Of a stretch of 64,000 bases of DNA, positions 2,277 through 22,969 are shown one piece after another. How positions within the stretch are numbered: position 1 is the first letter of the stretch; the number at the start of each line of letters is the position of its first letter. A program made the translations under genes and the position numbers. Under the pieces are notes generated by a model. The model was not told the origin of the DNA, searched no databases, and saw only the letters and a program-made list of their open reading frames with translations. Origin of the DNA: Sphingobium boeckii. GTDB lineage: Bacteria; Pseudomonadota; Alphaproteobacteria; Sphingomonadales; Sphingomonadaceae. The stretch spans positions 372,001-436,000 of the forward strand of contig NZ_JACIJC010000004.1 in assembly GCF_014199215.1 (NCBI RefSeq), read 5' to 3'.

Positions 2277-2316
2277 GCATTCGAAATCCCGTTGCGAGCT
2301 TTTGGAACTAGCCAGC

Positions 2317-3606
2317 ATGTCCTTGGTCATGGCCATATTTTCAAAGACGAAGCCCACGTTCAGAACCGCTGTTGTTCGCGGCCTGCTGCGATCGAGCGTG
2401 ATCGTTCCAGCGCTGATGCTGACGGCCGCGAATACCCCACACGCAAATGAGGAAATTTATCGTCAACGCTTCGAAGCCCTGATGAAAAGCGGCGGAATCC
2501 TGACCCGTTATGATCCGATGGAGCGCGTTGAAGGTGCGCGCAAAGCAAGACCGCTGCCGCTTGCCGCCGCCGATGCGCTGTCCGTCACGCCAGAGGCTCT
2601 GGATCAGGCGTCGGCTTATGCCAAGGCCAGCAACGCCAGCGCGATGATCGTGTGGCGCGATGGCAAATTGCAGCGTGCGGATTACTTCAAAGGCAAAGAC
2701 CGGAACAGTCAGATCGTATCCAAATCGCTCTCCAAACCGATCACCGCGATCGCGGTGGGCCGCGCGATTGCGATGGGCAAGATCAAGTCGGTGGATCAGC
2801 CGGTTGCAGATTTCATTCCGGAATGGCGCGGCACGCCCAAGGAACCGATGCTGATCCGTCATCTGCTAGATATGCGTTCGGGCCTGCTGGAGCAGATGTA
2901 TAGCGACGATCCCGAACATCCGATCAACCGCGCCTATATCGATCCCGACCATGGCTGGCACATCATCAACGATTATCCGCTGACTCACGAGCCTGGCCGC
3001 TATTATGGCTATGGCAATGCCGTGGCGGAGCTGATCGCCGTGGTGATCGAGCGGGCCACGGGCACGCGCTACGGGGATTTCATCGGCAAGCAGATCCTGG
3101 CGCCGATCGGCGCGGCGGGCGGCGAAATCTGGGTCAACCGGCCCGGCGGCCTCGCCCATTCGGGCTGCTGCATGACGTTGCCGGCGGAAAGCTGGCTGCG
3201 TCTCGGCATCCTGCTGATGAATGACGGCGTGGCCGATGGGCGCAGGCTTCTGCCCAAGGGCTATGTGGATGACATGGCGCATGGCACCCCTGAAAATCCG
3301 CATTATGGCATGGGCCTGTGGGTCGCCGGCCCCTATCTATCGCGCCGCGGCTTTGCTGCGCCGAGCAAGCCGGGGCCAAAAGTTCTGCACAGCCAGCCCT
3401 ATCTCGACAAAGACCTGTTCATGTTCGACGGCAATGCCAATCAACTGGTATTCATTTCGCGCGCCGCGCGGACGGTCATCCTGCGGATCGGCGATGCGCC
3501 GCCTCCATCGCCGGAATGGGATAACAGCGCCCTGCCCAATATCATCCTGGGCGGAATCATCTGGAAAAAGGGTGAGACCAGACCCGTAGCGCAGGCCGCG
3601 CCCTGA
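2317..3606 (+). CDS. Secreted SxxK serine hydrolase (beta-lactamase / 6-aminohexanoate-dimer hydrolase fold)
   Basis: 429-residue member of the class C beta-lactamase-like serine hydrolases, which include esterases and amidases. The catalytic SxxK is S137-L-S-K140 within SKSLSKPIT, and the second motif YxN is Y232-G-N234. The N-terminus has a long basic stretch followed by a hydrophobic segment (SSVIVPALMLTAANTPHA), so export to the periplasm or membrane is likely. An in-frame TTG exists at 2302, but ATG 2317 is preferred, with GGAA about 9 bases upstream. It is divergent from a TonB receptor, so it may process the imported substrate. True beta-lactamase activity is unlikely; hydrolysis of an ester or amide is the better guess. 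Confidence 0.85.
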   Translation: MSLVMAIFSKTKPTFRTAVVRGLLRSSVIVPALMLTAANTPHANEEIYRQRFEALMKSGGILTRYDPMERVEGARKARPLPLAAADALSVTPEALDQASAYAKASNASAMIVWRDGKLQRADYFKGKDRNSQIVSKSLSKPITAIAVGRAIAMGKIKSVDQPVADFIPEWRGTPKEPMLIRHLLDMRSGLLEQMYSDDPEHPINRAYIDPDHGWHIINDYPLTHEPGRYYGYGNAVAELIAVVIERATGTRYGDFIGKQILAPIGAAGGEIWVNRPGGLAHSGCCMTLPAESWLRLGILLMNDGVADGRRLLPKGYVDDMAHGTPENPHYGMGLWVAGPYLSRRGFAAPSKPGPKVLHSQPYLDKDLFMFDGNANQLVFISRAARTVILRIGDAPPPSPEWDNSALPNIILGGIIWKKGETRPVAQAAP

Positions 3607-3641: not shown

Positions 3642-4505
3642 TCACAGGGTTTTCCACAAAGGTTCGATCAGCGAAGCGGGATCTTCCAGCATTTGCGGGA
3701 AATGCTGTCTGGTGGCCTTGAGCCAGGTTTCGGGCAGTTCGTCCATCGATACGCCATAGCCTCCACTGGTGCTCGCCATCAGCAGATGGCCGGGATGACC
3801 GGCCGGCATCTCCATCCATGGCCGCCAGTCCACTGTGATCGTCACGCTGGTGGGGCAGGTCACTCGCATCGCGCCAGGCTGTTGAAGCTCTTTCAGGCTG
3901 GCGTGCATCGTCACCACCTCATTGTAGGAAAATGGCTTGGTGCCACCCGGAGGCTGCATCGTGACACGATTGATTTCGCTGATCCAGACATCGTCACCGC
4001 GGACCTGCGGCGCGCGAAGCTCGTGATCGAACGTCGCGCCGGGCATGTCGCGCGCGGGCGAGACACCATGATCGGGCAGCACCAGGATGCGGGACGGCGG
4101 CAGATTTCTGCGCGGCTCCGTGATGGTCTTGCCAGTGTAGGGGTTGAAAAAGCGCCCCGGCGCTTCGCCTGTTTTGGGATCAAGAAAATGCGCGATCTCG
4201 CCCGAGACGCCATCATAGCTGCCATCGGGCCGACGCCGGAACCGAGCGAAAGTGACGCCGACGACATCCCATAAAGGGGTCATCTGCCCATCGACGACGC
4301 CGAAATACGCACCGGTGCAATAGCCGATCACCAGCCGTTCATCGAGCGCCCCGCGCATCTGCATGAAGGCCCGGAAGCGATCGTCCTGATTGCTGAAATC
4401 GAGAGGCTTGGCGTTTGTCTTGCGGGCGATCGCCGAGCTTGCGCTGCCAAGCGCAGCCCCCGCGGCCATTGCCGCCATCACGTCGCGTCGTCCAAATTCC
4501 AGCAT
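3642..4505 (-). CDS. DUF1838 family protein, exported (first copy)
   Basis: 287 residues from the chosen start MLEFGRRDVMAAMAAG. A longer frame reaches 4559 but adds a non-conserved leader. The twin-arginine-like start (GRRDVM followed by a hydrophobic Ala-rich stretch) indicates Tat export. The rest is soluble and recognisable as DUF1838, a family of unknown function found near TonB receptors and catabolic genes in sphingomonads. It lies 72 bases downstream of a second DUF1838 gene on the same strand, and the two are probably co-transcribed. Conserved-looking stretches are PYTGK and NRVTMQPPGG. No catalytic motif is known, so no reaction is assigned. Confidence 0.8.
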   Translation of the reverse strand: MLEFGRRDVMAAMAAGAALGSASSAIARKTNAKPLDFSNQDDRFRAFMQMRGALDERLVIGYCTGAYFGVVDGQMTPLWDVVGVTFARFRRRPDGSYDGVSGEIAHFLDPKTGEAPGRFFNPYTGKTITEPRRNLPPSRILVLPDHGVSPARDMPGATFDHELRAPQVRGDDVWISEINRVTMQPPGGTKPFSYNEVVTMHASLKELQQPGAMRVTCPTSVTITVDWRPWMEMPAGHPGHLLMASTSGGYGVSMDELPETWLKATRQHFPQMLEDPASLIEPLWKTL

Positions 4506-4577
4506 CGCCCGCCCTTTCCCGTGTCTATCGCACGTCTGCACGGACAGGCGGCCGGTCACGACCGCCTGTCCATGGCA

Positions 4578-5585
4578 TCACTTCATGGGACCAGCAGCCG
4601 GCGGCGGCTGGGGCGGCGTCCATCCAGCAGGAACCGGCGCAGGCTTCTGATAACGCGCGTAATTTTCGAGGCTGGACAGCGAAGGACCATAATCCTCCGT
4701 CGGCGCATGAAGCCATTTCTCATCCATCGCGCGCGCCGCTTCGCGGATATCGGGTGCAAGCCCGGCAATGCCGTTGGGCACAGAAGCAAAGGCCGTGGTG
4801 TAAAGAATATTTCCGGGCGCGGCACCCATCAGCATCCAGGGCAGCCAAGGCGTGATGCGCTGCCATGCGCCCACATGCGGCACATGAGTCAGATTGGGGT
4901 TCTTCACGTCCTTGAGCTTGGCGGTGTAGGTGAAATGCTCGGAAACGCGGTTCATCCAGCCGGAGGATTCCCGCGGCCATTTATCTGGCCGCAAAGCGTT
5001 GGGATAAACCATGTCGATGCCCGTTTGCAGGATCAGCGTATCGTCCGGCCCATAAACCCAATCGAGCAGATAGGGCCGCTTGGCCACCTTTTCAGTTTGC
5101 AGACCGCCATAAGACGGGGGATCCTGATGGAATTCACTGATCGTGAAATTGAAGGGATCGTTGGCGATCGGGACGACCTTGACCGTCTCGTTCGTATAAG
5201 GATTTTCCCAGCTATCGAGGATCTTGCCGGTTTCCAGATCCCGGTAGAACACGATCTCGCGCAGCAGCCGGCGCCAGCTTCCATCTTCCAGGCGCTTGGT
5301 GCGCACCACGCTGAAACCATCGACGCCGAAGAGCGGACGAACCTTTTCATTGTCTCGCACGCCCATCGCCCGGCCCCTGATCCAGCCCACCTTTTCCTTC
5401 GTCGGATCAAGATCGGCATCCAGCCGCGTAAAGGTGTCACGGTTCCATTTCGGATCCTTGAAATCGATCTTGGAGACGAAATCCACTTTGGGAGCCGCGC
5501 CCATCGCCGGACCGGCTGCCGCCGCGCCCGCGGCAAGCGCTGCCATGCCAAGGCCTTCACGGCGCGTAAAAAGCATATCCTTCAT
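4578..5585 (-). CDS. DUF1838 family protein, exported (second copy)
   Basis: 335 residues from ATG 5585 (MKDMLFTRREGLGM), chosen because GGGAGA lies about 6 bases upstream; longer starts at 5591 or 5648 are possible. The TRREGLGMAALAAGAAAAG start resembles a Tat signal. The body shares features with the neighbouring DUF1838 protein: a DxDLDP segment, NPYTNETVKV, and a Trp-rich C-terminal half ending in a Pro-rich tail. The two genes are tandem and probably arose by duplication, although they have diverged considerably. The divergent promoter region shared with the hydrolase at 5750 carries a perfect palindrome. Function is unknown. Confidence 0.8.
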   Translation of the reverse strand: MKDMLFTRREGLGMAALAAGAAAAGPAMGAAPKVDFVSKIDFKDPKWNRDTFTRLDADLDPTKEKVGWIRGRAMGVRDNEKVRPLFGVDGFSVVRTKRLEDGSWRRLLREIVFYRDLETGKILDSWENPYTNETVKVVPIANDPFNFTISEFHQDPPSYGGLQTEKVAKRPYLLDWVYGPDDTLILQTGIDMVYPNALRPDKWPRESSGWMNRVSEHFTYTAKLKDVKNPNLTHVPHVGAWQRITPWLPWMLMGAAPGNILYTTAFASVPNGIAGLAPDIREAARAMDEKWLHAPTEDYGPSLSSLENYARYQKPAPVPAGWTPPQPPPAAGPMK

Positions 5586-5660
5586 CCCCATTCTCCCGAC
5601 TGTATACAATGCCCGAACCTGCTGCCGATCATTGCCTTGTCGCCACAAGGTTGGCGCATC

Positions 5661-5679: not shown

Positions 5680-5749
5680 GAGAGAACCCGCCTGCGCTCA
5701 AAGCCGGTCGACCGGCGCAATGCAGCGGTGCACGACGGAGGACATCAGA

Positions 5750-6574
5750 GTGAGCCAGGCCTTGAGGATGCGCAGGGGCTATATCGACGGCCCCTATGGA
5801 CAGATCCATTATCTTGACGGATTGGTAGGACGCCCGCTGTTGCTGCTGCATCAGTCCATCATGACCGCCAACCAGTTCGATTATGTGTTTGCCCCGCTCA
5901 TGGCGCACGGCATCCGGCCCATCGCGATCGATTATCCCGGATTTGGCATGTCCGATCCGACACCGTTCGTGCCTGCGATACGCGATTATGCCGAAACCGT
6001 GCCATTGGTGTTCGACGCGCTCGGCCTGGAGCGCGCCGCAATCGGCGGACATCATACCGGTGCGCTTGTAGCCAACGAAGCGGCGGTGCGCTTTCCCGAT
6101 CGCGTCGGTGCGGTGATCCTAGGTGGCCCCTTCATCGTGAGCGAAGACCAGCGTCAGGCGCTCATCGATGATATCCTGGTGCGTGAAAAAGCCTTCACGG
6201 CGTTGCCGGGCGCAGCGCATATGGTGCAGGTCGCCGCCGCGCGCGAACGCTATAGCCTGGGCACGATCAGCCCGGCGCGGATCGGGGATTATGTGGTGCA
6301 GGCGATGGCGGCGCTATCGCACGGTGCCTATTGGTATGGCCATAATGCCGGCTTTTCCTATCGTCAGGAAGAGACGCTGATGCAGATCACGCAGCCCACG
6401 CTGATCCTGACGAACACCGGCGACATGCTCTACGAAAGCGCGCTGACCGCGCACCGGATGCGACCTGATTTCGCCTTCACCGCGCTGAACGGCGGCGGGA
6501 TCGATATCGTTGACCAGCAACCCCAGCAATGGGCCGACGCCATCGCCGCGTTTCTGGCCGACGTGCCGGCGTAA
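5750..6574 (+). CDS. Alpha/beta-hydrolase-fold protein with altered active site
   Basis: 274 residues from GTG 5750, chosen for GGAGG eight bases upstream; the frame opens earlier but without conserved sequence. The fold is clear: LLLLHQS oxyanion-loop strand, AIDYPGFGMSDP, a nucleophile-elbow segment and a C-terminal acid segment (TNTGDMLYES). The elbow reads G100-H-H-T-G104, so histidine 102 stands where Ser, Asp or Cys normally acts. The position of the usual catalytic His near the C-terminus (NGGGIDIVDQQP) also has no histidine. Ordinary esterase or dehalogenase chemistry is therefore doubtful. It may be a lyase, an isomerase or a binding protein. It faces the MaoC-like gene at 6627-7796, 52 bases downstream. 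Confidence 0.8.
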   Translation: MSQALRMRRGYIDGPYGQIHYLDGLVGRPLLLLHQSIMTANQFDYVFAPLMAHGIRPIAIDYPGFGMSDPTPFVPAIRDYAETVPLVFDALGLERAAIGGHHTGALVANEAAVRFPDRVGAVILGGPFIVSEDQRQALIDDILVREKAFTALPGAAHMVQVAAARERYSLGTISPARIGDYVVQAMAALSHGAYWYGHNAGFSYRQEETLMQITQPTLILTNTGDMLYESALTAHRMRPDFAFTALNGGGIDIVDQQPQQWADAIAAFLADVPA

Positions 6575-6626
6575 GCCGGTCAGGGATCCAGCAGGAATCC
6601 CTACCAACCCTCGCCGGCGCGGGGCG

Positions 6627-7796
6627 TCACTTCCGGGTCGGCAGCTCGATCTCGCCCTTGGCGGTCGCCATGGTCTTGCCGAGCTGGTCGGCCATCTTGC
6701 AATCGATCTGCACGACATGCCGGCCCTGCTCATCGACCATCTTGTCGATCACAGTGGCGGTCATGAAGGTGGCATCGCCCGTAAAGGCCGGGCCGCGATA
6801 GGCCGAGTTCACATGGACCACCTGCCCATATTCTCCGGCCCAACCTGCAAGGTAATCGAGAATCCACGCGCCCATGGATGCACCATATCCATAAGGCCGC
6901 GGCATCCCGATGTAGCGCGCCCAGCGGGGAAAGAGGTGTCCGCGTGACGGCCCGAAATAGGCGCCGTCGGTCAGTTCGGGATTGATCCGCTCCATCACCC
7001 CGTCATTCTCGTGACCCGCCATGGCGGGATCGAACCCCAGCGCCTCGAAATCGATCACGGGCCGGTGCGTATCGCCCCACAGGGTGAAGAGATAGGCGCG
7101 CCATTCGGTGGTGATGCTTGCAATGCTGTGAGGCCCGAAGACGCGCACGGGCAGCGCATCGCCGATGCTCACATCTTCCCAATAGCGTTTGCCATGGCCA
7201 AGATCGTGCATCATGTTGATGAATTCGAGCTTGCGCTCCTCCAGCTCGGCGAGCGCCTGATCGGTCCACTCGGGGTCTTCCGTGGCGTCCATGGACCCCA
7301 TCTCGACGGCGAGATCATTGCGATAGCGGATACCGGTGGACCGCTGCTTGGCGATCAGATCGCCATCTTGATTATAATAATTATTGTCGCCCCGCTGGAA
7401 ACAGGTCGGGCCGGCGAATTTGGTCTCCTTGACCACATAATCGAACGGGATCTTTTCATTGTGGATCATGTCGCCGCCAAAGATGCGCGGGCCATAGAAC
7501 CACCATTCATCGCCGCCGAAAATCAGGTGAGAACCGGGGACCCGGCCGACGCACGCGGGGCCGGCGCCATGGCCATCGTCAGTGGCGACGGCGAAGGATT
7601 GCGGTGCCACGAGCCGGCCGTAGCGGCCTTCCTTGGCGAAATCATGATCATAGTGCAGCAGATTGGGATAGTGCATCGCCTGCACCCAGCGCCGAAAATC
7701 ATTGTTATGCAGCGGCTCCTTCATGCGCGCAGGCTGAAGGGGTTTGCCGAGATAATTATCGAGATCCGAGCAATCGAGCGTTCTGTCAGCCACCAT
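6627..7796 (-). CDS. MaoC / FAS1-like double-hotdog dehydratase
   Basis: 389 residues if read from ATG 7796; ATG 7817 and GTG 7793 are alternatives, and GGGAGA just upstream favours 7796 or 7793. The N-terminal half (HDHDFAKEGRYGRLVAPQSF) resembles the FAS1-like dehydratase N domain. The C-terminal half (GHLFPRWARYIGMPRPYGYG ... VHVNSAYRGPAFTGDATF) resembles a MaoC hotdog. Such proteins hydrate or dehydrate enoyl-CoA or hydroxyacyl-CoA thioesters in the cytoplasm, which fits the CoA-based catabolism around it. It is probably read with, or just upstream of, no other minus-strand gene, since the hydrolase at 5750 converges on it. Confidence 0.8.
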   Translation of the reverse strand: MVADRTLDCSDLDNYLGKPLQPARMKEPLHNNDFRRWVQAMHYPNLLHYDHDFAKEGRYGRLVAPQSFAVATDDGHGAGPACVGRVPGSHLIFGGDEWWFYGPRIFGGDMIHNEKIPFDYVVKETKFAGPTCFQRGDNNYYNQDGDLIAKQRSTGIRYRNDLAVEMGSMDATEDPEWTDQALAELEERKLEFINMMHDLGHGKRYWEDVSIGDALPVRVFGPHSIASITTEWRAYLFTLWGDTHRPVIDFEALGFDPAMAGHENDGVMERINPELTDGAYFGPSRGHLFPRWARYIGMPRPYGYGASMGAWILDYLAGWAGEYGQVVHVNSAYRGPAFTGDATFMTATVIDKMVDEQGRHVVQIDCKMADQLGKTMATAKGEIELPTRK

Positions 7797-7994
7797 CGTC
7801 TCCCGGTTTGAATCCATGGGCGCGGGAAATCATCCTCAGCGCTTGATGAGGCTTTCTATCGCTGCGCATCGGCCGCCGCCAGACCATTGGATGGCAAATG
7901 GCAAAGCATCGCCGCAGCGGCTACAGGCTTCAAATAACTGAAATCATTACTTTCCTAAAAGAAGCGCCGGAGAAAGAGGATGAGCGGCCTGCCC

Positions 7995-8909
7995 TCAGCC
8001 ATCCAGAAAGTCCCGCGCCAAAGCGGCAACCTCCGCCGCATGGACGCCGAACGTGCCGCCCGTCCAGGGCAGATCGAGCACACGCCCGTTGGGGACAACG
8101 GCCCGGGCGCGTGACGTGATGGCAAATAAAACATCGTTGGGATTGAGGATCAGTATCGGCTGGGTGATCTGAACCAGCGTTTTTGCAAAGTCATAGTCAA
8201 AGGATGCGGCATAGCCCCAATCCAGGTGCATCGGATCCCGGTTCATCTCCCAAAACAGGAGCCAGGCGCGCTCCTCATTCATGTCGGGCCTGAATTTGCG
8301 GAAAGCCTTCCAGTTTTCAGGGATTCGCGCAGCGGCCGCCTCCAGATCCGACGCCGCGACGTTTGCGACCCCGGCCTTCATCTTGACCAGATCCTCCGGC
8401 GTGAACATCAGCGCCGAATTGAGGATGATCTTGCGCACCAGCCTGGGCCGCTGACGCGCCAGTTCGAGCGCTGTGGCTGAGCTGGTGTGATTGCCCAGCA
8501 GATCGATGCGCTTCAGGCCCATCGCATCGACCAGATCGCCCATGGCCGCTGCAAAATCGCCAATCGTAGACGGGGCCGGAGGGCGATCGGAGAGACCATA
8601 ACCCGGCGTATCGGCGGCGATCGCCAGACGGTCCGTGCCCATCATCGGCAGGAAATCCATATAGCCCCGGCTCGATCCCGGGCTGGCGTGCAGGCAAAGG
8701 AAGGGCAGCTTTCCGCTCGCCTTCTGCGGTTGCGCAAAACGATAATGGACCTGGCCGAAGCGGCAGGGCTGATAGCCATTCAGCATCGCTTGCGGGCCAG
8801 GCGGCGGCGCGGCGCGCACGGAGGCCGTCAGCCCATCAGTGGACAGGGCCAGCCCCGCCGCGGTGATGCCCAGCGCCATCTGGCGGCGGTTCAGGGTGGA
8901 TGCGGTCAC
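7995..8909 (-). CDS. Exported alpha/beta-hydrolase-fold protein with altered active site
   Basis: 304 residues from GTG 8909, preceded by a strong AAGGAGG. The start MTASTLNRRQMALGITAAG is Tat-like, with cleavage likely near VRAAPPP. The fold is shown by LPFLCLHASPGSS, AADTPGYGLSDRP and an elbow at G139-N-H-T-S143, which puts His141 in the nucleophile position. The usual GHF-type catalytic histidine near the C-terminus reads GGTFGVH, so the aligned residue is Thr. It shares this pattern with the protein at 5750, so the two are likely paralogues of a non-classical subgroup, one cytoplasmic and one exported. Substrate unknown. Confidence 0.8.
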   Translation of the reverse strand: MTASTLNRRQMALGITAAGLALSTDGLTASVRAAPPPGPQAMLNGYQPCRFGQVHYRFAQPQKASGKLPFLCLHASPGSSRGYMDFLPMMGTDRLAIAADTPGYGLSDRPPAPSTIGDFAAAMGDLVDAMGLKRIDLLGNHTSSATALELARQRPRLVRKIILNSALMFTPEDLVKMKAGVANVAASDLEAAAARIPENWKAFRKFRPDMNEERAWLLFWEMNRDPMHLDWGYAASFDYDFAKTLVQITQPILILNPNDVLFAITSRARAVVPNGRVLDLPWTGGTFGVHAAEVAALARDFLDG

Positions 8910-9031
8910 GCGGCCTCCTTTTTCATGCTAGGGCTTTCGGGCGTTGAGGCAGCGCAGTGCCTGAGAAAGGGGTCTCGCCCGAAGCCGGTGCGGCCAGCTT
9001 CCGATCGAGGAATTCGCAGATTCGTCATGAT

Positions 9032-9827: not shown

Positions 9828-10583
9828 TCAAAGCGTTTTTTGCTCTCCGCCTGCTTGGTCCAGATGCAGATAAAGCGATGTAAAATCGCCGACATGTTGC
9901 AACCGTTGCCAGTCCCGATATTTTACAAACCGCTTGTCCCGCTCGATCAGTCCTTCGGCCGCGAGCAGCTTGAGCGTCCGATTGACGTGCACGCTGGTCA
10001 GCCCCACGGCATCGCCGATCTGCTCCTGCGTCATCGGCAATTCAAACCCCTCGCCATTGGCCAAGCCAGCCGCCTGCATCCGCAGCGCGAATTCACACAG
10101 GAGATGCGCCACACGCGTCTTGGCGTCGCGCCGCCCCACATTGACGACCCATTCGCGAAACACGGAGCCTTCGATCAGCGCGTCCGTCCACATGGCACGC
10201 CCGACTGCCGGTCGATCGATGATCAACTGCCGCAGGGCCGAGCGCTCGATATCGACCGCTTCCACCCGGCTGAGCGCCTGAACACTGTGATCCGCCCGCT
10301 TGAGAAACAGATGCTGCAGATCGATGAAATCGCCCGCCATATGGATGGAGACGATCTGCCGTGCGCCCGTCAGCGTCACCTTCTGCCGGAAAGCGAGGCC
10401 CGAGAGGATCAAGGTGCAATATGACGTAGGCGGCCCGCCCTCCCTGATGATATAGGCCGGTGCCTCATAGACGCGCACAGCATGGGGCAACGCTATGATC
10501 GCCCGACAATCTTCATCGTCCAGATCGGCCCGTGACCGGAGCCTACGCGCCATCAACTCCAGAATATGTGTTCGTGCAGACAC
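9828..10583 (-). CDS. Crp/Fnr family transcriptional regulator
   Basis: 251 residues from GTG 10583 (GGAG seven bases upstream); ATG 10676 would add 31 residues of unlikely leader. The N-terminal cyclic-nucleotide-type beta-roll is seen in APAYIIREGGPPTSYCTLILSG and SIHMAGDFIDLQHLF. A dimerisation helix follows. The C-terminal helix-turn-helix is MTQEQIGDAVGLTSVHVNRT. There is no Cys cluster of the FNR [4Fe-4S] type, so the signal is not evidently oxygen. This CNMP-type regulator resembles the many Crp/Fnr proteins of sphingomonads with unknown ligands. Its upstream region is unusually AT-rich. Confidence 0.85.
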   Translation of the reverse strand: MSARTHILELMARRLRSRADLDDEDCRAIIALPHAVRVYEAPAYIIREGGPPTSYCTLILSGLAFRQKVTLTGARQIVSIHMAGDFIDLQHLFLKRADHSVQALSRVEAVDIERSALRQLIIDRPAVGRAMWTDALIEGSVFREWVVNVGRRDAKTRVAHLLCEFALRMQAAGLANGEGFELPMTQEQIGDAVGLTSVHVNRTLKLLAAEGLIERDKRFVKYRDWQRLQHVGDFTSLYLHLDQAGGEQKTL

Positions 10584-10660
10584 ATCGGCTCTCCGTCGGG
10601 GCGGGAGCTCAAAGCATCTCTCAGTCGCCGGACACCCATATAGACCGTCAGCGATAATTC

Positions 10661-10740
10661 GCTTTAACATAAGCATTTATAATATATATGACAATTATCT
10701 GATTTTAATTTGCAATATATATTAGTTTATATTCCGCAAT
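10661..10740. promoter_or_regulatory. AT-rich island with 10-base inverted repeats
   Basis: Only 16 of 80 bases are G or C, against a strongly GC-rich background. It contains the perfect inverted pair TAATATATAT (10680-10689) and ATATATATTA (10715-10724). It lies in the 384-base gap (10584-10967) between the divergent Crp/Fnr gene and roxA and probably holds the promoter of one or both, or a bend or nucleoid-protein site. The rest of the gap, 10741-10967, has a strong AGGAGGAGG at 10911-10919 followed by a short TTG frame that ends 6 bases before roxA. Confidence 0.5.
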
Positions 10741-17080: not shown

Positions 17081-17656
17081 ATGGTCCAGAAACGTCGCGT
17101 GGGCGCGGAAAGCTCAGAAACCCGTGCCCGGATCGTTGATGCGGCCGAACAGGTGATCCGCGACGAGGGCTATGCCGCCGCCAGTTCGCGGCGGGTCGCC
17201 TTGCGCGCCCAACTGCCCCCTTCGCTGGTCCATTATTATTTCCCCACGACCGATGATCTGTTGCTCGCCGTGTTCCGGCGCGGCGCGGCGCAGAGCGATG
17301 TAATGATCGAGCAGGCGCTGGGCAGCGACGATCCGGTCCGCGCGCTATGGCGCTTTTTCGCCGACGCCAGCCGCACCGCTCTGGCGATGGAGTTCGTGGC
17401 GCTCGCCAATCACCGCAAGACCATCCAGGCGGAAATCGCGCGCCACAGCGACGCCATGCGCGCACGCCAGGCCGATCTGCTCGAACGGCTGCTGGGGGAT
17501 CGGCTGGCTGCTTACGGGCTGACGGCCGCGGGCCTCGGGCTGCTGCTCGCGGGCGTTGGCCGGACGCTCGTCATGGAAGGCGGACTCGGGGTCAGCGCAG
17601 GCCATGATGAAGCGCGCGCATCCGTCGAGGCCTGGCTGGATCGGCTGCTATCTTGA
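17081..17656 (+). CDS. TetR family transcriptional regulator
   Basis: 191 residues from ATG 17081 (MVQKRRVGAESSETRAR); an upstream frame overlapping the SDR is rejected because it lacks family sequence. The helix-turn-helix is ASSRRVALRAQLPPSLVHYYFPTT, with a helical C-terminal ligand domain. The gap before it contains a short tandem CCAAAGCGC. Directly downstream, a palindrome precedes the TauD-type gene, its probable target. Confidence 0.85.
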   Translation: MVQKRRVGAESSETRARIVDAAEQVIRDEGYAAASSRRVALRAQLPPSLVHYYFPTTDDLLLAVFRRGAAQSDVMIEQALGSDDPVRALWRFFADASRTALAMEFVALANHRKTIQAEIARHSDAMRARQADLLERLLGDRLAAYGLTAAGLGLLLAGVGRTLVMEGGLGVSAGHDEARASVEAWLDRLLS

Positions 17657-17675
17657 CTCCCGCAATCCATTGTGC

Positions 17676-17689
17676 TGAACATGTGTTCA
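17676..17689. promoter_or_regulatory. Operator TGAACA-TG-TGTTCA overlapping a promoter
   Basis: A perfect 14-base palindrome 30 bases before the TauD-type start. A TTGACT hexamer at 17653-17658 lies exactly 17 bases upstream, so the palindrome covers the expected -10 position; this suits repression by the TetR protein encoded immediately upstream. Binding itself is inferred. Confidence 0.55.
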
Positions 17690-17718
17690 ACAAAAGGGCA
17701 CGCACAGGAGAGCACGCC

Positions 17719-18564
17719 ATGTCCGTCACTACGATGACACGTTTTGTCCATGAAAAGATCAAGCCGACGATCGGCAGCCGCATCCTCAACAGCAAGGCAG
17801 AACTGCTGGCGGGTGATCTTGGTTCCCAGATCCGCGAACTGCTCGAGCAGCGCGGCGTGCTGGTGTTCAAGGAAATCAATTTCAACGATGAAGAGCAGAT
17901 CGCCTTCACCAAGACGCTGGGCACCTTTGCGCCCGAGATGCAGGACGGCACGGATCACAAGATCCACAAGATCACGCTCGATGTGAAGGAAAATCCCCAG
18001 AGCGCCGAATATCTCAAAGGCTCGCTCTACTGGCATATCGATGGCACGATGAACGATACGCCGATCCTGGCATCGCTGTTGTCGTGCAAGGTGCCCGCGA
18101 CCTGGGGCGGCAATACCGGCTTCTGCAATACCTATGCCGCCTATGACGCCCTGACCGACGAGCAAAAGGCCGAATATGAGCCGCTGCGCGTGATGCACTC
18201 GGTCTGGTCATCGCTGCTGTATTACGAGCCCGAGCCGCCATTGGCCAAGTTGACCGGCTTCCAGCGGATCGGCGAAAATGAATTGCCGCTGGTTTGGAAT
18301 CACCGCTCCGGCCGTAAGTCACTGGTATTGGGTTGCACCGCGCACCGCGTGCTCGACGAGGAGCCGATGAAGAGCGCGCAGCTTCTGGTGGGCCTGCGCG
18401 AATGGGCGACCCGCGAAGAGTTTAGCTACAGCCACGAATGGTCCGTCGGCGATCTGGTGATCTGGGACAATACCGGCACGATGCACCGCGCCGAGAAATA
18501 TGATCCCGATTGCAACCGCATGATGCACCGCACCAAGCTGCAGGGCGAAGAGCCTTTCGAATAA
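17719..18564 (+). CDS. TauD/TfdA-family 2-oxoglutarate-dependent dioxygenase
   Basis: 281 residues from ATG 17719 (AGGAGA seven bases upstream). Non-haem iron oxygenase using 2-oxoglutarate: iron ligands H106-I-D108 in YWHIDGT and H256 in GTMHRAEKYDP, with a 2-oxoglutarate-binding Arg likely at 267 or 271 (NRMMHRTKL). The TauD/TfdA family hydroxylates unactivated carbons, often leading to cleavage of ether, sulfonate or amine bonds. Here it probably hydroxylates the catabolic substrate. It has its own promoter and operator and ends at a good terminator. Confidence 0.88.
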   Translation: MSVTTMTRFVHEKIKPTIGSRILNSKAELLAGDLGSQIRELLEQRGVLVFKEINFNDEEQIAFTKTLGTFAPEMQDGTDHKIHKITLDVKENPQSAEYLKGSLYWHIDGTMNDTPILASLLSCKVPATWGGNTGFCNTYAAYDALTDEQKAEYEPLRVMHSVWSSLLYYEPEPPLAKLTGFQRIGENELPLVWNHRSGRKSLVLGCTAHRVLDEEPMKSAQLLVGLREWATREEFSYSHEWSVGDLVIWDNTGTMHRAEKYDPDCNRMMHRTKLQGEEPFE

Positions 18565-18588
18565 GCCAGGCCATTCAACGCCAACAAG

Positions 18589-18621
18589 GCCCGCCGCCAT
18601 GCAGATGGGGGCGGGCTTTTT
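18589..18621 (+). terminator. Rho-independent terminator after TauD-type gene
   Basis: Stem GCCCGCC (18589-18595) with GGCGGGC (18610-18616), extended by CCAT/ATGG, followed by TTTTT. It lies between the convergent TauD-type and Rieske oxygenase genes. Confidence 0.75.
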
Positions 18622-18634
18622 CGATTGCGCGGCC

Positions 18635-19987
18635 TCAATCCATCACGGTCGGTGCCCCCGCCCCCATGAAGCGCGCCAGATTGAAATGCAGGCTCGCCAC
18701 CGCGCGCTCCATATAGGGATTGGGCTGCGTGCCGCGGAAGCCGACATTCTTCATGCCTTGCTGGACCGCCGCCATATTGGCGAAATCCTGTTGCAGCACG
18801 GGCGGCCAGTTTTCCGCGGCGGTATAATCCCATTCGGTGTCCGGCGCTTCGCCTTGGGGATACAGTTCGTAGACGGCCGCCTCGAAGATGCACTTGTCCG
18901 GATCGTCGCCAAAGGGCCGTGCGCTGTAGCAAAGCATGTTGTTGACCGCGTGGCCGATCTGGAAATTGGGAAACACCTGCCATGCCGTTCCCGCCTTGGC
19001 GGTGTGCTCCGCCGCGATCACCGGCCAGACAACCCCGCGCTTCTCATCGGCGGCGCGCGCAGACTGTATCCAGTGGCGTGACACTTCGGTCGCCGGCGTG
19101 CCCTCGGGCAATTCGTCCTTCAGCCGGTTGGCCGCATCGACCAGCGTCTGCGTGGTGTTGGTATTGGCATTCGCCCAGGTGAAATTCTGCATGTCCGCCG
19201 TGGTCAGCCGGGGGTCTGCCCCGCTGCCCACGCGCAGCTTGCCGCTATCCTCCTCCATCCCCTTGGGCGCTTCATAGCCGATATTGGTATGCAGCCCGTG
19301 AGTGTGCGCCCAGCCACGAAACTGGCCGAAATCGTTGAATTCGGGATGGGTGCTGAACACATGATAGGTCTCGGCGAACGCTTCCATCGCCACTTTCCAA
19401 TTGCAATCGAAGACGATCCATTTGCGCCAGCGGTAACGCATGTTCTGAAGCTGATAGGGATCGAGCATCTCGGGAATGGCGCCCAGATAATCGCCGAGTG
19501 GTGCGCAATCGGGATCGAGATTGATCCACAGCCAGCCGCCCCATGTATCGACCTGCACCTTGCCTAGGCTGGTGCGCGCGTCGCTCAAAGCCCCCTGCCA
19601 ATCATCCTTATGCTCGATATAGGTGCAGCGCCCCTCCAGATTGAACGTCCAGGCATGATAGCCGCAGATGAAGCTCATCCTTTTGCCTTTGGCGTTGCGC
19701 TTGCCCGGTGGCGTATCGATCAGGCGGCGGCCGCGATGCGGGCAGACATTGTGAAAGGCGCGAATCTCATCCGCCCCGGCGCGCGAGATGATCACCGAAT
19801 CCGGGCCGATCTCATAAGTGATGAAATCGCCGATCTCTGGAATGTCCTCGATCCGGCCGGCCTGAAGCCAGGTCTTGCGCCACAGCCGGTGCTGCTCGGC
19901 CCGCGCATAATCGCTGGAGATATAAGCTTCGGCGGGCACGGTGACCGGTCCGATCAGATCTTCAGCGCTCTGGACGATTTTGGCCAT
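18635..19987 (-). CDS. Rieske non-haem iron oxygenase, alpha subunit
   Basis: 450 residues. The N-terminal Rieske [2Fe-2S] domain has ligands C82, H84, C108 and H111 (NVCPHRGRR ... FICGYHAW). The catalytic domain has iron-binding His209 and His214 in ETYHVFSTH. The residue that usually bridges the two centres, Asp, is Glu206 here. The family adds oxygen to rings or oxidatively demethylates. No beta-subunit gene follows, so it is probably a homomeric alpha-only enzyme that takes electrons from the ferredoxin at 29394 or one elsewhere. It is the last gene of a minus-strand run with crotonase, CoA-transferase, lyase and acyl-CoA dehydrogenase. Confidence 0.9.
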   Translation of the reverse strand: MAKIVQSAEDLIGPVTVPAEAYISSDYARAEQHRLWRKTWLQAGRIEDIPEIGDFITYEIGPDSVIISRAGADEIRAFHNVCPHRGRRLIDTPPGKRNAKGKRMSFICGYHAWTFNLEGRCTYIEHKDDWQGALSDARTSLGKVQVDTWGGWLWINLDPDCAPLGDYLGAIPEMLDPYQLQNMRYRWRKWIVFDCNWKVAMEAFAETYHVFSTHPEFNDFGQFRGWAHTHGLHTNIGYEAPKGMEEDSGKLRVGSGADPRLTTADMQNFTWANANTNTTQTLVDAANRLKDELPEGTPATEVSRHWIQSARAADEKRGVVWPVIAAEHTAKAGTAWQVFPNFQIGHAVNNMLCYSARPFGDDPDKCIFEAAVYELYPQGEAPDTEWDYTAAENWPPVLQQDFANMAAVQQGMKNVGFRGTQPNPYMERAVASLHFNLARFMGAGAPTVMD

Positions 19988-20002
19988 GTCGTGTGTCGCA
20001 CC

Positions 20003-20022
20003 TTCGTTCCTGCAAGGACGAA
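20003..20022. promoter_or_regulatory. 20-base imperfect palindrome upstream of Rieske gene
   Basis: TTCGT-N-C-N-TGCA-N-G-N-ACGAA symmetry with 16 of 20 positions paired, 16 bases upstream of the Rieske oxygenase start at 19987. It is close to the start codon, so repression, or a hairpin in the leader of the multigene transcript, are both possible. Confidence 0.35.
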
Positions 20023-20053
20023 CGATAGCATTTCGCGCCGCTTATCCGTATCG

Positions 20054-20821
20054 CTACCGCGATTTCCAGTCTGGCGGACGCTTCTCGGCAAAGGCCCGTG
20101 GCCCCTCCTGCGCATCATCGCTGCGATAGGTATATTCGGAGGCCGCGCGCGCCGCCTGCAGCGCCGCCGCCCGCCCCATTTCGGTCGCCAGCATCACGGT
20201 ATCGCGCCCGGATTTCACGGACAGCGGCGCGCCTTCCAATATCTCCCCGGCCAATTCCAGCGCCTTGTCCATCAGCGCGTCCGGCTCGGCCAGACGGTTG
20301 ACCAGTCCGATCTCATAGGCGCGCTGTGCGGTGATCGGTTTGCCGGTCAGAATGATCTCCATCATGATCCGCTGCGGAATCATGTGGATCAGCGGCGCGG
20401 CCCAGGGCGAACTGCGGCCGACCTTCACCTCGGTAATGGCAAAGCGCGCGGTGGTGCTCGCCACGCACAGATCGCACGCCTGGGCGATCATCCATCCGCC
20501 AGCGAACGCCACCCCGTTGACGGCCGCGATCGTCGGCTTGGAGAGTTCGATCGTATCATAGGGCAAGGGAAACATGTCACGCGGCGGCACCTGCATCCCC
20601 GTCTCGACCATCTCCTTCAGATCGCCACCCGCACAGAAAGCCTTTTCCCCCGCGCCGGTGAGGATCGCGACCCGCAGCGCTGGATCACGCTCGAACCGTT
20701 CCCATGCCGCGAACAGCCCCTCGCGGATTTCGCGGCCCAGCGCATTGCGGTTTTCGGGCTGGTTGAGCGTGATGATCGCAATTCCGTCATCCCGCGCGTC
20801 GAACAGGACCGCATCGTTCAT
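20054..20821 (-). CDS. Enoyl-CoA hydratase/isomerase (crotonase)
   Basis: 255 residues, full crotonase length. Oxyanion-hole segments are AFCAGGDLKEM and AAVNGVAFAGGWMIAQACD. Downstream VGRSSPWAAPLIHMIPQR stands in the region that carries catalytic Glu in hydratases; no Glu is seen there, so isomerase, thioesterase or decarboxylase activity is also possible. It starts one base after the CoA-transferase stop, indicating an operon. Cytoplasmic beta-oxidation step. Confidence 0.88.
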   Translation of the reverse strand: MNDAVLFDARDDGIAIITLNQPENRNALGREIREGLFAAWERFERDPALRVAILTGAGEKAFCAGGDLKEMVETGMQVPPRDMFPLPYDTIELSKPTIAAVNGVAFAGGWMIAQACDLCVASTTARFAITEVKVGRSSPWAAPLIHMIPQRIMMEIILTGKPITAQRAYEIGLVNRLAEPDALMDKALELAGEILEGAPLSVKSGRDTVMLATEMGRAAALQAARAASEYTYRSDDAQEGPRAFAEKRPPDWKSR

Positions 20822-20822
20822 T

Positions 20823-22085
20823 TCAGAATCCCCTCTGGAAAATATCGTGCGCCGCCCGCTCCAGCCCTTCGCGAAAATCGGGATGAGCGATGGCGATCAG
20901 GCGGCGGGCGCGTTCGGCCAGCATCTGCCCCTTCAGCTCCGCCGCGCCATATTCCGTCACGATCACATCCACATCGCTGCGTGCGGTGGTGACCGGGCCG
21001 GAGAGCGCGGAAACGATCTTGCTGATCGCGCCGCCCTTTGCCGTGGCGGAAAGCGCGATGATCGAGCGGCCACCGGGCGACCGCGCACCAGCCCGCACGA
21101 AATCCACCTGCCCGCCCGTGCCGCCCAGATAGGCCGCGCCCGATTGTTCGGCATTCACCTGCCCCGTAAGATCCACCTCCAACGCGGAATTGATCGTGAC
21201 GAGGCGGGAGAGTTTGCCCAGCACAGCGGCGTCATGGGTATAGCTGGTGGTGCACATGCGGATGGCCGGATTGCGATCCGCCCAGTCATAGAGCCGCCTG
21301 GTGCCGATCAGCGCGCCATTGATCGAAATGCCCGCGTCCACTTCCTTGCGCGCGTTGGTGATCACTCCGGCCTCGACCAACTCCACCAGTCCGTCGCCCA
21401 GCATCCCCGAATGCACACCCAGATCCTTGCGATCGCCGAGCAGCCGCAGGATCGCATCGGGCACCGCGCCCACCCCGGTCTGGATCACCGATCCGTCCCC
21501 GATATACGCGGCGCAATGGCGCGCGATGATCTCGTCGGTCTCGCCGATTTTCGCAGGTGCGACCTCGACCGGCGCGCGCGAGACATGCACCGCCACGTCA
21601 ATGGCCGAGGCCGGGATGAGTTCGCCCGGCGTGTAGGGGACAGCCTCATTCACCTCGGCGATCACGACGCGCGCCTTCTCCACCGCGGCGCGCACATAAT
21701 CGCCGATCAGGCCGCAACTGTGATTGCCATCCGCATCCGCCGGGCTCACCTGAATCATCGCGACGTCGCAGCCGATGATATCGGCCGTGATCAACGGGCC
21801 GATCTGGCTCACATGTACGGGGATGATCGCGAGCTTGCCCGCCCTGGTCATGGATCGCAAAGCGCCGATCGCGCCCATGCTGGAAAGCGCGACGCTGGCC
21901 GCACTTTCGGGCGTGAAGAGACCCGAGAAACTGGTGGCGATGAAGGCTGACAGATCGCCAATGCCCTGCCCTTGCGCGATCAGCGCCTCGACCAGAGTCG
22001 TCGGCTCGCCGCAGGCCTGGCCAAACACGATCCGATCGCCTCGACGCAGAATGCGGCTGAGATCGAGCGCGGCCGCGTCGATCAC
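20823..22085 (-). CDS. Acetyl-CoA hydrolase/4-hydroxybutyrate CoA-transferase family protein
   Basis: 420 residues. Family I-type CoA-transferase fold with GQACGEPTTLVEAL, an AMIQVSPADADGNHSCG segment, TGVGAVPDAIL and the C-terminal VTEYGAAELKGQ. The position that holds the catalytic Glu in 4-hydroxybutyrate CoA-transferase (HTEM) reads H225-S-G-M228 here, so the transfer mechanism may differ. ATG overlaps the upstream HpcH gene stop by four bases (ATGA). Likely transfers or releases CoA from a short or branched acyl intermediate of the pathway. Confidence 0.85.
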   Translation of the reverse strand: MIDAAALDLSRILRRGDRIVFGQACGEPTTLVEALIAQGQGIGDLSAFIATSFSGLFTPESAASVALSSMGAIGALRSMTRAGKLAIIPVHVSQIGPLITADIIGCDVAMIQVSPADADGNHSCGLIGDYVRAAVEKARVVIAEVNEAVPYTPGELIPASAIDVAVHVSRAPVEVAPAKIGETDEIIARHCAAYIGDGSVIQTGVGAVPDAILRLLGDRKDLGVHSGMLGDGLVELVEAGVITNARKEVDAGISINGALIGTRRLYDWADRNPAIRMCTTSYTHDAAVLGKLSRLVTINSALEVDLTGQVNAEQSGAAYLGGTGGQVDFVRAGARSPGGRSIIALSATAKGGAISKIVSALSGPVTTARSDVDVIVTEYGAAELKGQMLAERARRLIAIAHPDFREGLERAAHDIFQRGF

Positions 22086-22969
22086 AGGCGGCCGGCGGAT
22101 TTCAGTAATTGTTCGGCCCGGCTGAGATAGGGGCGATCGAGCATCCCGCCCTTGTAACCGATTGCGCCGACGCCGGGATTGGCGGCGAAGATATCGACGA
22201 TGGCCTGCGCCTCGGCAATCTCCTCCTCGGTCGGCGTGAAGGCGGCATTGATTACATCCACCTGCGCCGGATGGATCGCCAGCATCCCGCGATAGCCGTC
22301 GCGCCGCACCTTTTCGGCGCGCGCCTTCAGCCCTTCAAGATCGCGGAAATCGCCCTGGATCGTCTCGATCGCTGGCACGCCGGCCGTTGCGGCACCCAGC
22401 AGGCAGAGACTGCGCGCCAGTTCGTAAGTGAAGCCATAGCTGCCATCGGGATTGCGGTTTGAGCTGGCCCCGATCGAATCGGCCAGATCCTCAGCGCCCC
22501 AGGTGAGCGCGATCACGCGCGGCGCGCCCTTGTAGCTGCCGGTGTGGAACATCGCTTCGGCCGTCTCGGTGATCAGCACGATCACGGGCGTCGACCCCTT
22601 TTCGATGCCGTTCGCCACTTCCAGCGCGGAGAGATAATGATCCAGCAATTCCACGTCCTGCCGGCCATACACCTTGGGCAGCATGATCCCGCCCGGCCGC
22701 GCCGGCATGATCGCCGCCAGATCGTCCAGCGTATAGGGACCATCAAGCGGGTTGATGCGCACCCATAGCCGCTCTCGCCCAGAGGGGTTCGCCTTCAGGA
22801 AATCATGGACCATCTGGCGGGCGACCGCCTTGTTTTCGGTAGCGACCGCATCTTCGAGATCGAACAGCGCAATGTCTGCGGTGCCCTCGGCGGCCTTGGC
22901 CATCTTCTTCTCGCTGTCGCCGGGTGCAAACAACCAGGACCGCATCTTGGGCAAAGGGGTATCAGGCAT
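22082..22969 (-). CDS. HpcH/HpaI aldolase / CitE-like lyase
   Basis: 295 residues. Cytoplasmic Mg2+-dependent lyase of the citrate-lyase-beta/malyl-CoA type, cleaving or hydrolysing beta-hydroxyacyl-CoA esters. Motifs: MRSWLFAPGDSEKKMAKA, ALFDLEDAV with acidic metal ligands, LWVRINPLDG, and GGIMLPKV. Full family length. Overlaps the CoA-transferase gene, and the acyl-CoA dehydrogenase gene lies 15 bases upstream, so a lyase plus CoA-transferase module acting on one intermediate is likely. Confidence 0.88.
   Translation of the reverse strand: MPDTPLPKMRSWLFAPGDSEKKMAKAAEGTADIALFDLEDAVATENKAVARQMVHDFLKANPSGRERLWVRINPLDGPYTLDDLAAIMPARPGGIMLPKVYGRQDVELLDHYLSALEVANGIEKGSTPVIVLITETAEAMFHTGSYKGAPRVIALTWGAEDLADSIGASSNRNPDGSYGFTYELARSLCLLGAATAGVPAIETIQGDFRDLEGLKARAEKVRRDGYRGMLAIHPAQVDVINAAFTPTEEEIAEAQAIVDIFAANPGVGAIGYKGGMLDRPYLSRAEQLLKSAGRL

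Follow-up and report, generated by a model that had tools for sequence, protein, structure and literature searches.

Two hydrolase-fold genes with a histidine elbow

The 64,000-nucleotide stretch of the Sphingobium boeckii genome analysed here (hereafter the window; contig NZ_JACIJC010000004.1, positions 372,001–436,000) carries two genes for alpha/beta-hydrolase-fold proteins in which a histidine stands at the site of the usual nucleophile. Protein 1 (5750–6574, + strand; 274 amino acids) is predicted to be cytoplasmic, while protein 2 (7995–8909, − strand; 304 amino acids) begins with a signal resembling those of twin-arginine (Tat) export, NRRQMALGITAAGLALS...ASVRAA, which was read from sequence alone and is disordered in the AlphaFold model. 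The nucleophile elbow reads GHHTG in protein 1 (residues 100–104; 6047–6061, + strand; His102 codon at 6053–6055) and GNHTS in protein 2 (residues 139–143; 8481–8495, − strand; His141 codon at 8487–8489); translation and models of both proteins confirmed the histidine that the initial annotation had placed at this site. Each gene has a plausible GGAGG ribosome-binding site upstream of a GTG start, 8 nucleotides away in protein 1 (5737–5741; start at 5750) and 4 in protein 2 (8914–8918; start at 8909). These sites, the full-length models described below and purifying selection on protein 1 (ratio of non-synonymous to synonymous polymorphism, pN/pS, 0.27–0.50) rule out a sequencing or frame artefact.

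The remainder of the fold is retained, as had been proposed. Both proteins match PF00561 above its cut-off (38.6 bits for protein 1, 40 bits for protein 2), and AlphaFold2 models built on family alignments (mean predicted local distance difference test, pLDDT, 96.6 and 89.2, respectively) have the eight-stranded core and the strand–elbow–helix turn after strand 5 that define the alpha/beta-hydrolase fold, matching 1,500–1,700 PDB chains in Foldseek at E ≤ 0.001. In both models the turn from strand 5 into the next helix is occupied by histidine, H102 lying between strand 96–101 and helix 103–114 and H141 between strand 135–140 and helix 142–153. A different residue at the elbow is ruled out by these models, in which the histidine stays in place and no substitute takes over.

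The acid of the triad is also present: Asp225 of protein 1 (6422–6424, + strand) directly follows strand 7 in the model and the family alignment, and Asp259 of protein 2 (8133–8135, − strand) is its aligned equivalent. After strand 8 the loop sequence is GGGIDI in protein 1 and WTGGTFG in protein 2; the usual catalytic histidine near the C-terminus is gone from both, as first suspected, and protein 2 has a histidine (GVH) a few residues beyond its loop. Neither protein thus has the Ser, Asp or Cys elbow or the post-strand-8 histidine of a canonical triad, and only the strand-7 acid (D225, D259) is left. The dehalogenases and epoxide hydrolases, recognized by an Asp nucleophile and an equivalog-level score, do not accommodate them either, given the elbow histidine and an NCBIfam scan of both proteins in which every model stayed below its cut-off, the best with 54.6 of 390 bits. 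The base histidine after strand 8 that marks HOD-type dioxygenases is absent from both.

In each protein two of the three triad residues are missing, as might be expected of pseudoenzymes or ligand-binding proteins, in which catalysis has been lost and the histidine serves ligand recognition; non-catalytic receptors with the hydrolase fold do exist. This explanation is taken up again below, with the two-domain relatives that bear on it.

The GxHT family and its separation from Ser/Asp hydrolases

The GxHT family as defined here comprises proteins with a profile score well above those of Ser/Asp hydrolases (threshold ≥135 bits to the family profile), a histidine elbow and a strand-7 acid. Proteins 1 and 2 have all three features, scoring 290.6 and 230.6 bits, whereas other hydrolases of the same genome score at most 79. 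That genome has 34 PF00561 matches, among which 10 single-domain proteins and one two-domain protein (284 bits) are of the GxHT type; the GxHT proteins score at least about 231 bits and the non-GxHT hydrolases no more than 79 (30 of the 34 loci scored). Protein 1's close relatives in this genome bear G-x-H-T-[GS] elbows, and the histidine elbow is shared by all of its close paralogues and orthologues.

Of 137 non-redundant family domains, 124 have His at the elbow, five Ala, three Trp, two each Arg and Gly and one Gln; Ser, Asp or Cys occurs in none (0/137), and canonical Ser/Asp-elbow hydrolases from the same loci score 113.6 bits at best against the family profile. Because the seed alignment had been selected by its histidine elbow, the elbow columns were masked and the search repeated. 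Histidine was again found in all 75 domains above 250 bits. Of 152 domains above 150 bits, 143 had it, with Ala, Arg, Trp, Gly or Gln in the remainder; the canonical GxSxG proteins begin at 108.5 bits, so that the gap persists. In a quick tree the GxHT family falls on one side of a branch from 21 canonical hydrolases, with Shimodaira–Hasegawa-like approximate likelihood ratio test (SH-aLRT) support of 84, slightly under what counts as strong. Within the family, proteins 1 and 2 belong to different subclades.

Chance or decay as the origin of the elbow histidine is ruled out by the elbow counts, the masked search and the pattern in tandem domains (see below), and the initial annotation's view of a coherent subfamily stands: the histidine recurs in the alignment of homologues, none of the close ones has Ser, Asp or Cys in its place, and the family still stands apart from Ser/Asp hydrolases when the elbow is masked. 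A few single-domain members are without the elbow histidine [L131, L132 (GHRGG), L103, L150 (GRATG), L089 (GEAVG)]; these are candidate secondary pseudoenzymes and could serve as natural controls.

With the PF00561 Ser/Asp hydrolases, among them the haloalkane and fluoroacetate dehalogenases, epoxide hydrolases, the 3-oxoadipate enol-lactonase PcaD and Est1, the GxHT proteins share fold, strand order, an HG-like loop, the DxPGxGxS motif and the strand-7 Asp. They differ from them in that those enzymes have a Ser or Asp nucleophile and an obligatory post-strand-8 His, and score at most about 114 bits compared with the ≥135 of members. The nearest solved structures are Est1 (8v16/6eb3) by sequence and 4uhc, 5o2g and 1brt by fold. 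At rank 10 among the fold matches of protein 1 is E-2-(acetamidomethylene)succinate hydrolase (3kxp) of vitamin B6 catabolism, which carries out a catabolic C–N hydrolysis but at 21% identity is not close to protein 1 in sequence; we take 3kxp to be a canonical member by sequence and elbow. In our copy of the PDB no solved structure belongs to the GxHT family, the best at 106 bits being a Ser esterase, and Pfam and NCBIfam hold no GxHT-specific model. The open-access literature yielded no account of the family, of a GxHTG motif or of a His nucleophile in the alpha/beta-hydrolase fold, though an earlier report may exist in subscription papers or curated enzyme databases. GxHT is thus a large bacterial family that is apparently uncharacterized.

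Conserved residues and the fate of the triad

Conservation was assessed over the 124 His-elbow domains, which are 20–71% identical to protein 1, whose numbering is used. D61, G66 and H102 are invariant, and H34, S68, G64, H20 (97%), G104 (97%) and G100 (96%) are 96–99% conserved. Position 225 is Asp in 115 of the 124 domains (93%) and Glu in six (5%), an acid therefore being present in 121 (98%). Any histidine at all in the post-strand-8 region was found in 37 of 124 members (~30%), compared with nine of nine canonical proteins. Across the family, then, the acid of the triad is retained, the nucleophile has been replaced by a fixed histidine, and the histidine that is normally the third residue has become dispensable.

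The HT pair noted at the outset as shared by the two proteins is general to the family in that position 103 is Thr in 82% and Ser in 12% of domains, but it is His alone, and not Thr, that is invariant. Thr103 is unlikely to be a hidden nucleophile, as Gly, Asn, Ala, Leu and Phe also occur there. His20 was likewise considered as a family-specific catalytic residue and set aside; although highly conserved, it lies in the middle of strand 2 and is common in related hydrolases, and its role is probably structural.

The elbow histidine occupies the exact site from which Ser, Asp or Cys attacks, beside small residues and an oxyanion region that are intact, and in other folds histidine is known to act as a covalent nucleophile. 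The main chemical rival to the reading developed below is accordingly that H102 itself attacks the substrate, and that the resulting acyl- or alkyl-imidazole intermediate is resolved by hydrolysis or by transfer to an acceptor. With the classical histidine usually absent, the family has no other conserved base for attack or deacylation, and a review of the fold, which describes Ser, Asp and Cys nucleophiles and D/E–H dyads and no elbow His, gives no precedent for such chemistry (PMC11878206). We regard a covalent role as unlikely.

The conservation data also speak to a metal site, in which the elbow histidine would be a ligand together with, possibly, His157 of the cap and the strand-7 Asp. 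The cap motif DGxHLxxxW has its Gly, His and Trp conserved at 74–88%, H157 itself at 74%, and D225 is as constant as described above. But H157 gives way to Tyr, Gln and other residues in a quarter of members, and H34 belongs to an ordinary HG-type loop. We know of no metal-dependent member of this kind, and we consider a metal site highly improbable.

Tandem two-domain members as an internal control

Sixty distinct proteins contain two hydrolase-fold domains in tandem, and all 60 have a histidine elbow in at least one of them: the first domain in 58 and the second in 18. Second domains without it have Gly, Trp, Gln, Asp, Glu or Ser at the elbow, or an elbow that could not be aligned. One His motif held while its partner drifts within the same polypeptide is what an active site would be expected to show, which argues against neutral decay and against a purely structural role of the histidine.

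The tandem proteins also bear on loss of catalysis, and in both directions. Their partner domains do decay, as that explanation would have it, yet in all the tandem proteins the His persists in the domain that is kept, and the strand-7 acid is nearly as constant across the family. Moreover, up to 43 domains per 3–4 Mb genome and operons shared with metabolic enzymes (see below) suit enzymes better than receptors. That the family consists of pseudoenzymes or binding proteins is therefore, in our judgement, quite unlikely.

Distribution across genomes and plasmids

The 137 non-redundant domains come mostly from Pseudomonadota, with a few from Actinomycetota. At E ≤ 1e-40 the profile detects GxHT domains in 30 of the 150 genomes from the window's own taxonomic family, 23 of 289 from its class and six of 398 across its phylum. 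GxHT genes also occur on plasmids of Novosphingobium, Sphingobium, Azospirillum, Shinella, Variovorax, Comamonas, Antarctobacter, Streptomyces and Rhodococcus, and the occurrence of the family beyond Pseudomonadota rests on two actinomycetotal plasmids. The alphaproteobacterial genomes G361 and G480 (3.1–3.7 Mb) encode 43 GxHT domains each.

Catabolic neighbours of GxHT genes in other genomes

In the clusters of relatives, GxHT genes lie near genes for a flavin adenine dinucleotide (FAD)-binding oxidoreductase, a LeuCD-type hydratase, a lyase of the isocitrate-lyase/phosphoenolpyruvate (PEP)-mutase type, a CaiB-type coenzyme A (CoA) transferase, a 3-hydroxy-3-methylglutaryl (HMG)-CoA-lyase-like enzyme, an isochorismatase, a PuuE-like deacetylase, an aldehyde dehydrogenase and transporters of the major facilitator superfamily (MFS) or TonB type. 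One gene row in Comamonas consists of an acyl-CoA dehydrogenase, a GxHT hydrolase, an isochorismatase and two PuuE-like deacetylase genes. Such contexts suggest that GxHT proteins are enzymes of catabolism, often where C–N bonds or alkylated dicarboxylic acids are handled. A recurrent cluster of LeuCD, PEP-mutase lyase, CoA transferase, isochorismatase, PuuE-like enzyme and FAD oxidase was seen at eight loci (L063, L065, L001, L176, L180, L181, L174, L215). As a speculation, it could convert a cyclic imide bearing an alkyl group, or a comparable N-heterocycle, to an alkylmaleate and on to central metabolites. That LeuCD/PuuE/isochorismatase clusters degrade tetrapyrrole fragments (alkylmaleimide) is speculation as well, for which a literature search gave no support.

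In 13 of 23 cases (0.78 expected), from seven genomes, a member of one family of S-adenosylmethionine (SAM) methyltransferases is encoded no more than 12 kb from a GxHT gene, and in Antarctobacter a relative of that family overlaps the GxHT gene by 4 bases. The same family is co-expanded with GxHT, at 42 copies in G361 and 41 in G480. Its members (L174:12270–13451 and relatives, cluster c3) have the methyltransferase fold and an N-terminal part of ~190 residues without a Pfam match. Small alphaproteobacterial genomes with this combination (G361, G480 and G573; family code f102; e.g. L138, L140, L141, L143) carry 13–43 GxHT domains and 16–42 methyltransferase copies, a co-expansion that possibly serves the degradation of diverse dissolved compounds.

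Several neighbours (isochorismatase, nitrilase, PuuE-like) act on C–N bonds, which would also fit a cofactor-free oxygenase or decarboxylase of the HOD kind, deprotonating a heterocyclic or beta-dicarbonyl substrate that then reacts with O2 or loses CO2. The HOD and AqdC dioxygenases are the precedent for this fold working with a His–Asp base and no nucleophile, the latter being dispensable and sometimes Ala (PMC10548524). Their base, however, is on the post-strand-8 loop and their elbow residue is Ser or Ala, an arrangement different from that of GxHT, and neither aerobic hosts nor C–N neighbours point to oxygenation specifically. We give HOD-like chemistry only a small chance.

Gene neighbourhood in the window

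Between the genes of proteins 1 and 2 lies a gene for a MaoC/hot-dog-like protein (FAS1_DH_region; 6627–7817, − strand; PF13452, 2.2e-21), probably co-transcribed with protein 2. Divergent from protein 1 is a gene for a DUF1838 protein with a Tat-like signal (4578–5648, − strand; PF08894, 2.6e-39), followed by those for a second such protein, also with a Tat-like signal (3642–4559, − strand; PF08894, 4.1e-14), and a serine beta-lactamase-fold hydrolase (2302–3606, + strand; PF00144). A Crp/Fnr-type regulator (9828–10676, − strand) adjoins the cluster, its membership being uncertain. A DUF1838 gene also comes after the orthologue in Novosphingobium P6W, and a protein-1-type gene elsewhere (G025:C214, L157) is found near DUF1838 and a beta-lactamase-fold homologue (cluster c54); the open literature gave no function for DUF1838. 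Further along the window (17653–22969) is another catabolic set near the GxHT genes, comprising a TauD-type dioxygenase, a Rieske ring hydroxylase, an enoyl-CoA hydratase, an acetyl-CoA hydrolase/transferase and an HpcH/HpaI-type lyase.

A proposed His–Asp centre

The initial annotation had left it between pseudoenzymes, binding proteins and enzymes of new chemistry, and had not registered how large the family is, its tandem architectures or the ~30% of members with a histidine in the post-strand-8 region. The enzyme option is the better supported, because the His and Asp are near-invariant at ~25% identity, the tandem proteins provide a control and catabolic operons recur; the chemistry itself is inferred. 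We suggest, at somewhat short of even odds, that GxHT proteins are active enzymes in which a dyad of elbow His and Asp acts as general acid–base without a covalent Ser/Asp intermediate. The elbow imidazole would lie roughly between the places normally taken by the nucleophile and the catalytic histidine, and would pair with the strand-7 Asp. The dyad could then activate water or deprotonate the substrate, while the intact oxyanion-hole region would hold the developing negative charge. The reaction may be a catabolic step, hydrolytic or lyase-type, on dicarboxylic intermediates that are alkylated or on intermediates that contain nitrogen, taking place in the cytoplasm for protein 1 and outside the inner membrane for protein 2. 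Besides HOD, the hydroxynitrile lyases AtHNL and HbHNL offer a parallel, with the triad His of AtHNL as general base and an oxyanion hole formed by the elbow backbone (PMC3444685), although they retain a complete Ser–His–Asp triad and, in AtHNL as in HOD, the base His follows strand 8.

Several observations weigh against a His–Asp enzyme as proposed. The elbow histidine has been lost in a few members (GRATG, GHRGG) and is hence dispensable in some lineages, and certain clades (GYHTG...GHG type, L019, L138) retain a His near the classical position, for which a pure replacement model has no need. The open-access literature yielded no member with assayed activity. The substrate class is read from neighbouring genes only, and these vary between subclades; in the window, DUF1838 and the MaoC-like gene tell nothing of it.

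Significance

Few enzyme folds rival the alpha/beta-hydrolase fold in size, and any protein that has it is called a hydrolase by automatic annotation. The conserved elbow histidine suggests a use of this common fold not yet described. The chances are, we think, evenly balanced that GxHT is a widespread branch whose catalytic histidine has moved to the elbow, forming a His–Asp centre (or His nucleophile) new to the fold and expanded in Alphaproteobacteria to as many as ~43 domains per genome for catabolism. The kept and decayed domains of the tandem proteins, together with the recurrent methyltransferase partner, make function directly testable. If such a clade is real, many genes are annotated under the wrong mechanism, and the family would be a natural example of a fold changing its catalytic strategy.

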